Below are positions 1 to 2,151 of a stretch of DNA of 64,000 bases, piece by piece (positions within the stretch are counted from its first letter, which is position 1; every line of letters starts with the position of its first letter). The position numbers and the translations under genes are program-made. The stretch comes from an uncultured Holophagaceae bacterium (GTDB lineage: Bacteria > Acidobacteriota > Holophagae > Holophagales > Holophagaceae), in contig CAIMQW010000093.1 of NCBI GenBank assembly GCA_903843705.1, positions 1-64,000 on the forward strand, in the 5' to 3' direction. The notes beneath the pieces are model-generated. The model had not been told where the DNA came from, did no database searches, and saw only the letters and a list, made by a program, of their open reading frames with translations.

Positions 1-270
1 GGGCTTCTTGGCGGCGGCCTTCTTCGGCGCGGCCTTCTTCACGACGGCCTTCTTCACGGCCGGCTTCTTGGCGGCGGCCTTCTTCGGCGCGGCCTTCTTC
101 ACGACGGCCTTCTTCACGGCCGGCTTCTTGGCGGCGGCCTTCTTCGGCGCGGCCTTCTTCGGCGCGGCCTTCTTCGGCGCGGCCTTCTTCACGGCCTTCT
201 TCACAGCCGGCTTCTTGGCGGCGGCCTTCTTCGGGGCGGCCTTCTTGGCAGCTGGCTTCTTGGGGGCAGC
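1..270. repeat. 60-bp tandem repeat (plus partial units) encoding AVKKAVVKKAAPKKAAAKKP on the minus strand
   Basis: Bases 2-60 and 62-120 are identical; 121-270 carry further partial units (KKAAP, KKAAA, KKPAV). Confidence 0.95.
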
Positions 271-1296
271 CTTCTTCGCCGGCTTCGCAGCTTCGACGGC
301 GGGAGGGAGGAGGGGGGTTTCGGCCATGGGTGGCTCCTTTACGCCCTTTTGGGCGGGGTTGGAAGGGGTCGTGCGGGAAGAGGGTTTGCCCTTGGCATCC
401 TTCGCGCCAGGTTGGACCGGCTCTTTCCGCGGGGTGGATATGCGTTCCTTGGCCGCCGAAACGGCCGTGGGGGCTAGCGCCGCGTCTGCGGCAGAGCCGG
501 TCTTGCCCTTGGGCTTCGCGGCTTTTTTCGGGGGCTCCACGCCTGCCAGGATTTGGGCGAGGCGCTTGCCGGGATAGTAGTCATCGAGGAGGGCGTCGCC
601 GATCAAAAGGCCGTGGAGACCCAGGGCCTCCGCCTGCTTGATCTGCTCCAGACGCTGGATGCCGCCCTCGATCATTTTCAGGCAGCTCTTGGGGACTTTC
701 TTGACGAGCGCCACCGCCTGCTCCCAGGACGCTTCCCAGGTGTCGAGGTTGCGGCCCACGGCACAGATGATGTCGGCCCCGGCTTCGAGGGCGCGCTGCA
801 GCTCGGCCTCGGAGGTGGCCTCCACCACTACGTCTAGCCCCTTGCTGGTGGCAAACTTCAGGAGGGTCTGGAGGCGGTCCTGGGGCAGGAGCGCCGGCAT
901 CAGGAAGATGGCGTCGGCGCCGAGGATCTTGCTCTCCTCGACCTGGTACTCCTCGAAGATGAATTCACGACGGATCAGGGGCAGTTTCACTTGGGCGCGC
1001 ACCTCGGAGAGGTGTTTGTCATCGCCGAAATAGAGGAACTTGTCCGTGGCGACCGACAGGGCCCGGGCCCCGTTCTCAGCCAAACTCTTCGCGTGGGTGG
1101 AGGCTTTATAGGCTTCCCGGACCTGCCCGCGTCCCGGATCTCCTCCCGCAACTTCACCCAAGATGGTGATTCCAGGCTGGCTGAGCTCTTCTTTCAGCGA
1201 GTGGTGACCCTTGTAACCGTCCTTCACCGCCACGGGGCCCCTCTGCTTCTTGATTTCCACATCAAGGGCCTTAAAGATGGCGACTTTCTTTAGCAT
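1..1296 (-). CDS. TrpC (indole-3-glycerol phosphate synthase)-like domain fused in frame to histone H1-like Lys/Ala/Pro-rich tail (3' end outside window)
   Basis: Manual reverse-strand translation from ATG at 1296: MLKKVAIFKALDVEIKKQRG...GEVAGGDPGRG...LSVATDKFLYFGD...LPLIRREFIFEEYQVEESKILGADAIFL...VVVEATSEAELQRALEAGADIICAVGRNL...IEGGIQ...GLLIGDALL, then PPKKAAKPKGK...KKAAPKKAAAKKPAVKKAVVKK to base 1 with no stop. Not in the ORF track because it is open at the window edge. Confidence 0.85.
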   Translation of the reverse strand, partial: MLKKVAIFKALDVEIKKQRGPVAVKDGYKGHHSLKEELSQPGITILGEVAGGDPGRGQVREAYKASTHAKSLAENGARALSVATDKFLYFGDDKHLSEVRAQVKLPLIRREFIFEEYQVEESKILGADAIFLMPALLPQDRLQTLLKFATSKGLDVVVEATSEAELQRALEAGADIICAVGRNLDTWEASWEQAVALVKKVPKSCLKMIEGGIQRLEQIKQAEALGLHGLLIGDALLDDYYPGKRLAQILAGVEPPKKAAKPKGKTGSAADAALAPTAVSAAKERISTPRKEPVQPGAKDAKGKPSSRTTPSNPAQKGVKEPPMAETPLLPPAVEAAKPAKKAAPKKPAAKKAAPKKAAAKKPAVKKAVKKAAPKKAAPKKAAPKKAAAKKPAVKKAVVKKAAPKKAAAKKPAVKKAVVKKAAPKKAAAKKP

Positions 1297-1524
1297 TTAC
1301 CACGCTCCAAATCTCAGATACCTCACTGCTGGCCCTATGCGGAAGATCACTGGGCATTTTCCCTCTGATTCAACATGAAACCAGCGATCTGGATGAGGTC
1401 AACAGCAAAAAACAAAAAATCTTCATTTTTTTTGACGCTACTGCCTCGCCGAGTGCTCATTCTTTTCCGCTGTTCGAGACCCCGCAGTGCGCGACACTTG
1501 ATGAATCCGATGCCGAGGTACCCC

Positions 1525-2151
1525 ATGACGGTCCACCTGCTCGACCACCCTCTCGTCCACCACAAGCTCTCACTCATCCGCGACCGGAAGACGCCCGGCA
1601 GCTTGTTCCGCGCGCTCACGGAGGAAGTCGGGCTGTTGCTCGCCGTCGAGGCGACACGCGATCTGCCGACAGATTCGGTTGTCGTGGAAACGCCCCTTGA
1701 GCGGACAGGTACGCGCAGGCTCAAGCCGCTGGATCCCGTGCTGGTGCCCGTGCTCCGGGCCGGGCTCGGCTTGCTGCCGTCCTTCCTCAAACTTCTGCCG
1801 ACGGCGAAGGTCGGTCACCTCGGACTCTACCGGGACCACGACTCACTGGTGCCCGTGCCCTACTACCGCAATTTCCCCCCGCTCCTGGAAGCGCGTCCCG
1901 TGTTCGTGCTTGACCCCATGCTTGCCACGGGCGGGAGCGCCTCGGAAGCCGTGCGGCAGCTGAAGTCCGCTGGTGCGATCACCCTCACGCTGGTGTCCGT
2001 GCTGGCCGCACCCGAGGGCATCGAGCGGCTGAAGAAGGACCACCCCGACCTGACCATCGTCGTGGGCGCCATCGACCGCCAACTCAATGAGAAGGGCTAC
2101 ATCTTGCCCGGCCTTGGTGACGCGGGCGACCGACTCTTCGGCACCGCCTGA
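1525..2151 (+). CDS. upp: Uracil phosphoribosyltransferase
   Basis: MTVHLLDHPLVHHKLSLIRDRKTPGSLFRALTEEVGLLL...VLVPVLRAGLGLL...VLDPMLATGGSASEAV...GYILPGLGDAGDRLFGT; typical UPRT. Start taken at the internal ATG 1525. Confidence 0.95.
   Translation: MTVHLLDHPLVHHKLSLIRDRKTPGSLFRALTEEVGLLLAVEATRDLPTDSVVVETPLERTGTRRLKPLDPVLVPVLRAGLGLLPSFLKLLPTAKVGHLGLYRDHDSLVPVPYYRNFPPLLEARPVFVLDPMLATGGSASEAVRQLKSAGAITLTLVSVLAAPEGIERLKKDHPDLTIVVGAIDRQLNEKGYILPGLGDAGDRLFGTA

Follow-up and report, generated by a model that had tools for sequence, protein, structure and literature searches.

In PhaF and AlgP a structured part is combined with a KPAA tail, which tethers the protein to the nucleoid. The tails of this kind in AlgP bind DNA, RNA or polyphosphate (PMC9239181). 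It is also established, e.g. for Cas11b, that an in-frame internal start can yield a second protein (PMC11899642). The gene described here is compared with these systems. It is found in Holophagaceae, a family of soil and sediment bacteria, and combines a biosynthetic enzyme fold lacking its chemistry with a chromatin-type tail, this combination being retained through the whole bacterial family. Among open-access full texts no paper was found that connects such a protein with Holophaga or Geothrix.

Architecture of the gene and its locus

The window, i.e. the whole analysed stretch of 64,000 nucleotides from an uncultured Holophagaceae bacterium, carries the gene at its very edge; the family assignment is borne out by the named relatives, Geothrix and Holophaga. 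On the minus strand 432 codons are open from position 1296 to position 1, and the frame continues past the window end. Base 1 of the window is base 1 of the contig (G000:C93:1) and is located within a 60-bp DNA repeat; the stop codon is unassembled because the contig starts inside the 60-bp repeat units. The missing C-terminal end is given by the orthologues L009–L012 (98–99% identical), which have full ORFs of 470–484 aa. The features of the region are as follows (representatives, n = 47, are loci with barrels less than 92% identical at the DNA level):

1375–2151, plus strand: upp (uracil phosphoribosyltransferase), divergent neighbour; an ORF, with upp upstream in nearly all genera
1305–1308, minus strand: Shine-Dalgarno-like GGAG, 8 nt upstream of the ATG of the long product; seen in the sequence, with pS 0.04 over gene codons 1–6
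541–1296, minus strand: (beta/alpha)8 barrel of the IGPS fold without the IGPS catalytic residues, residues 1–252; from Pfam, AlphaFold2, PDB folds and residue counts
328–540, minus strand: variable basic linker, in frame, residues 253–323; 13 lengths, 0 stops in 4,214 codons, dN/dS 0.46
343–354, minus strand: small hairpin GCCC-AAAA-GGGC just 5' of the internal ribosome-binding site; GCCC/GGGC in 44 of 47 representatives
334–339, minus strand: internal Shine-Dalgarno AAGGAG; AAG GAG invariant in 47 of 47 representatives
325–327, minus strand: internal in-frame start ATG, residue 324, of a putative free H1-like product; ATG in 45 and GTG in 2 of 47
1–327, minus strand: H1-like Lys/Ala/Pro tail, open at the contig end; from the HC2 match, composition, net charge and the lengths in relatives
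1–120, minus strand: two 60-bp tandem tail units, identical save at most for the last base, where the contig breaks; seen in the sequence

The gene order is conserved: divergent upp, the fusion gene, eno, ftsB, dapF, parA and parB. In nearly all genera upp (or rnc) stands divergently upstream, and eno, ftsB, dapF, parA, parB and folC are found downstream (the neighbours were mapped by homology, and the gene names are readings of the sequences, not profile matches). In two genomes of the genus Holophaga (L047, L048) the downstream part consists of eno and ftsB only, dapF and parAB being not found adjacent. An ancestral arrangement was sought upstream of eno in the sister families, and neither a barrel nor an H1 gene is present at that site, where other genes stand. 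In several single-contig genomes the gene is located 65–120 kb from the record end; this would fit a position near the origin, provided that these records start at dnaA.

The first-pass annotation had proposed, from the letters of the window, that an IGPS-fold domain is fused in frame to an H1-like tail in an ORF running beyond the window. Both points hold: the frame is open from 1296 to 1, both parts have Pfam matches (that of the tail below the Pfam cut-off), and orthologues are present in all 11 genera. A search with the barrel profile gave matches in 73 of the 78 family genomes, a figure that includes genomes where the true TrpC alone matched; the fused form itself, which the same annotation had suggested looking for in relatives, is present in 66 of the 78 (all 11 genera searched, most of the genomes compared being drafts). 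Among the 12 family genomes where the fusion was not found, at least 3 have it broken by a contig end inside the tail. In G022, G045 and G059 eno is located at the contig edge and is preceded by the mere end of a Lys/Ala/Pro tail, so that these cases are assembly gaps, with a break inside the tail repeats of the same kind as in the window. Outside the family, a profile search covering the sister families within the class and about 270 genomes of the phylum that belong to other families gave no orthologue; the matches obtained there are ordinary TrpC with less than 160 bits, as against more than 450 bits for full-length orthologues. A MAG labelled Deltaproteobacteria (L123) contains the locus of Holophagaceae, its reading frame disrupted, and is probably a mislabelled bin.

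The barrel domain

Pfam IGPS matches residues 29–239 with an E-value of 1.9e-47 (E-values and profile cut-offs, here and below, depend on their libraries). Structure prediction with AlphaFold2, another check proposed at the outset, gave an IGPS-like (beta/alpha)8 barrel (pLDDT 83, pTM 0.84), and the best fold matches of this model in the PDB are the IGPS structures 6y88, 6bma and 1igs. The active site is different. In 62 of 62 orthologues the equivalent of K53 is A/S, that of K110 is R/H/Q, that of N180 is V/L and that of S211 is G/A/C (K53 and K110 follow the numbering of the Sulfolobus enzyme), whereas all 33 canonical TrpCs compared from the phylum, the true TrpC of these genomes among them, have the four residues intact. 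We take the two lysines to be the essential acid/base residues of IGPS, and the roles of N180 and S211 are assumed likewise. Other positions of the pocket are kept: E48, R109, R182, E210, G233 and D234 are invariant in the fusion barrels and E159 is nearly so.

The barrel misses the NCBIfam TrpC equivalog cut-off (best 179 bits against 260). A separate true TrpC is present in the genome, with trpA in its vicinity; the fusion is retained in G001–G003 and G074, where trpA is not detectable, and genomes of some 1 Mb that lack trpA have it too. The replaced residues, the profile scores and the occurrence without trpA rule out a working TrpC. Of the initial designation "TrpC-like" the fold thus stands and the enzyme does not; judged by its residues, the barrel is a pseudo-IGPS, catalytically dead for the tryptophan step. 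In the tree the fused barrels form one clade (100/100); its stem is long, at 2.18 changes per site, and little change follows, the nearest TrpC relatives of the clade being without strong support. The dN/dS of the barrel is 0.06, i.e. it is under strong purifying selection. Such a history is expected from a single functional shift with strong constraint thereafter.

It is conceivable, if somewhat unlikely, that the barrel has remained an enzyme, catalysing another reaction, and is put on the nucleoid by the tail. The highly conserved pocket (invariant E48, R109, R182, E210 and D234, nearly invariant E159) and slow evolution after one long stem, a pattern of new function, would agree with this proposal, but both IGPS acid/base lysines are gone and no pathway can be made out from the gene neighbourhood.

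The canonical TrpC of Holophagaceae (L141–L150, L154, L155) is itself divergent, having YKGF or AKGF and not RKDF, and groups only loosely with most other Acidobacteriota TrpCs. It may be a copy acquired by transfer, which released the old one.

The linker and the internal start

At the junction of the linker and the tail the minus strand contains GCCC-AAAA-GGGC, 3 bases, AAGGAG, 6 bases and ATG (window 354–325). The in-frame ATG at 327–325 following AAGGAG was overlooked in the first-pass annotation, which expected a single product of more than 430 aa; this expectation is probably wrong, since from a start site conserved inside the frame an additional product, the tail alone, is to be expected. 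All 47 representatives have AAGGAG unchanged, and the start codon is ATG in 45 and GTG in 2 of them. The amino acid is conserved in 140 columns; the codon is invariant in just 3 of them, and these three are the Ala codon at M-9 within the hairpin (GCC in 44/44) together with AAG and GAG of the internal Shine-Dalgarno. The proline at M-2 is encoded by CCA in 35 of 36 cases despite 70–90% G/C in the third positions of most of these genomes, and in 38 of 47 representatives the residue after the internal Met is Ala. In the genus Geothrix pS is 0.01 over codons 313–324 and 0.04 at the first start, with a mean of 0.47 in the barrel. The marks of a gene with an in-frame internal start, namely a conserved Shine-Dalgarno, a start codon and synonymous constraint, are all present, and the aligned codons demonstrate selection on the internal start at the nucleotide level. 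As AAGGAG-N6-ATG is invariant and synonymous variation drops to about 0.01, two proteins are most likely made from the gene; very probably the tail is also translated alone from the internal start.

The GCCC/GGGC stem is found in 44 of 47 representatives with varying loops; its two sides are kept around residue M-8, which differs between sequences (Q, R, L, S, T). The stability of the hairpin is not significant sequence by sequence on synonymous resampling, and for this reason the hairpin is treated as suggestive. A start-codon hairpin common to all genera was also considered and rejected: its pairing register is not the same between the genera, and in most sequences synonymous resampling gave it no significance. 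Neither the upstream region of the gene nor the linker contains a match to a sigma-70-type promoter. In Geothrix-genus orthologues the linker has a further block of codons with hardly any variation (codons 256–288, window about 433–531, minus strand); it encodes a disordered stretch and includes the rare ATA in 17 of 18. It is perhaps an internal promoter or an RNA element for the short product.

A rather improbable explanation of the junction is that the long fusion alone matters and AAGGAG-ATG is a by-product of the conserved peptide Lys-Gly-x-Lys-Glu-Pro-x-Met, serving e.g. as a protease site or as a binding motif of the linker. The peptide is indeed as conserved as the DNA, and the fusion outlives the loss of the motif in G052. 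However, the codons are frozen beyond the amino-acid need (AAG and GAG in 47/47, GCC in 44/44, CCA in 35/36), pS is as low as 0.01, and residue M-8 is free to vary while the flanking stem is kept. The case of G052 (L047), a complete genome in which the internal Shine-Dalgarno and ATG are lost and the fusion is kept, means that the free product is not universal and that the fusion is more than a by-product of the nested start.

Integrity of the fusion was examined in the linker. At 61 loci it has 13 different lengths (51–78 codons), every one of them in frame, and its 4,214 codons contain no in-frame stop, as against 71 and 90 stops in the other two frames. Shuffled linkers of 46 representatives have a mean of 72 stops and never zero. 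These in-frame lengths and the absence of stops against the shuffled expectation indicate that the linker is translated within the fusion across the whole family. A frameshift between 330 and 540, or a stop in relatives, had been named at the outset as what would separate the two parts, and neither a stop nor a frame change was encountered. As read from the relatives, the long open frame is a real in-frame fusion and neither chance nor a frameshift.

The same data bear on the proposal that a single frame holds two genes whose products, barrel and H1-like protein, act apart, the long product being tolerated but not used. The strongly conserved internal start and the fast evolution of the linker (dN/dS 0.46) would suit it. 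Yet a single stop in the linker would split the two genes and none occurs in the 4,214 codons of 61 loci, the frame is kept by all 13 linker lengths, and G052 without the internal start is still fused, so we regard this arrangement as unlikely. An artificial joining of two genes in assembly or sequencing, for which the contig end in a repeat might speak, has practically no probability and is already refuted, the fusion being mid-contig in the single-contig genomes G011, G018, G034, G036, G066, G067 and G071 and present in named isolates, e.g. Geothrix fermentans and Holophaga foetida; full-length relatives, isolates and stop-free linkers rule out a frameshift or a stop in the same way.

The H1-like tail and the proposed mechanism

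Pfam HC2 (histone H1-like, PF07382) matches residues 338–431 with an E-value of 7.7e-8, the window tail scoring about 33–36.9 bits with the Pfam cut-off at 40. The cut-off is passed by orthologues in 7 of 17 genomes, up to 89 bits. Across 17 family genomes the HC2 model revealed no separate HC2-type gene, and the 12 family genomes that gave a match did so at the fusion locus only; as no other HC2 locus matched, a free tail would be the sole HC2-type protein found in these genomes. Complete tails contain 35–46% Lys/Arg and have a net charge of +52 to +76 in most genera, and in relatives with this internal start they are 29–211 aa long. The net charge is just +15 to +31 in the genus Holophaga, and the tails of the small-genome genus are 29–33 aa; strong DNA condensation is therefore unlikely in these two genera.

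The Holophaga-genus tails (L047–L049), of much lower charge, are built of KKAEPKAVP or KKADPTPVPDSDPTP repeats. In the genome of the window another H1-like tail is present on a different protein: L005:1500-2088 (G000:C70) encodes a Rrf2-like regulator (family judged by eye) with a Lys/Ala/Pro tail (...KKAAKPAAKKAPAKAVKPAVKKAPAKKA). L002:1359-2010 (G000:C10) has a signal-peptide-like start followed almost wholly by Lys/Ala/Glu/Pro repeats.

We consider it probable that one gene gives two proteins, a long form of barrel, linker and tail and a free H1-like tail, and that the tail tethers the barrel to the nucleoid. Ribosomes starting at 1296 would make the long protein, i.e. the dead IGPS-fold barrel, the flexible basic linker and the H1-like tail, and those starting at the internal AAGGAG-N6-ATG (327) would make the tail alone, a small H1-like protein. 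By analogy with the KPAA tails of AlgP, we infer that the tail binds DNA, RNA or polyphosphate. The binding to nucleic acid would be electrostatic, as in AlgP and PhaF, and the long form would therefore hold the barrel on the nucleoid; the free form would condense DNA or dilute the tethered form. The conserved pocket of the barrel (E48, R109, E159, R182, E210, G233, D234) is likely to bind some phosphorylated metabolite, or a partner, and not to catalyse the tryptophan step, and the tethering is perhaps ligand-dependent.

A DNA-binding barrel or a metabolite-sensing chromatin protein, both suggested initially, are reasonable as hypotheses. More tentatively, the protein may be a nucleoid-tethered metabolite sensor of Holophagaceae, in which the dead barrel binds a phosphorylated ligand and the ratio of long to short form, set by the internal start, couples metabolism to chromosome compaction or segregation near parAB; we hold this extension to be rather doubtful. 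The closeness to parAB may be an old linkage without functional meaning. The cultured strains Geothrix fermentans and Holophaga foetida make the fusion and the two-product claims directly testable. Genome annotation would be likely to label the gene as indole-3-glycerol phosphate synthase and to overlook the predicted second protein.

Comparison with known systems

The fusion barrel shares with TrpC (PF00218) its fold and length and keeps the equivalents of E51, E159, R182, E210 and G233. It differs in the loss of the K53, K110, N180 and S211 equivalents, in being kept where trpA is absent and in coexisting with a true TrpC located elsewhere. The tail resembles Hc2 (PF07382) and AlgP of Pseudomonas in its low-complexity Lys/Ala/Pro repeats, high positive charge and species-variable number of repeats; unlike these, it is encoded in frame within the 3' end of the ORF of another protein. 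The architecture of a structured N-terminal part followed by a disordered basic C-terminal tail is that of PhaF and AlgP, and the fusion likely works alike. Its N-terminal part, however, is a pseudoenzyme TIM barrel and not a phasin or a helical domain, and it has an internal start for the tail. In the latter respect a comparable case is the in-frame internal start of Cas11b in archaeal type I-B CRISPR, where a shorter product also comes from a start inside a longer frame. The shorter product here differs in being a predicted H1-like protein, and if the two-product reading is true, it would be a clear example of a pseudoenzyme gene with a nucleoid protein nested within it in frame.
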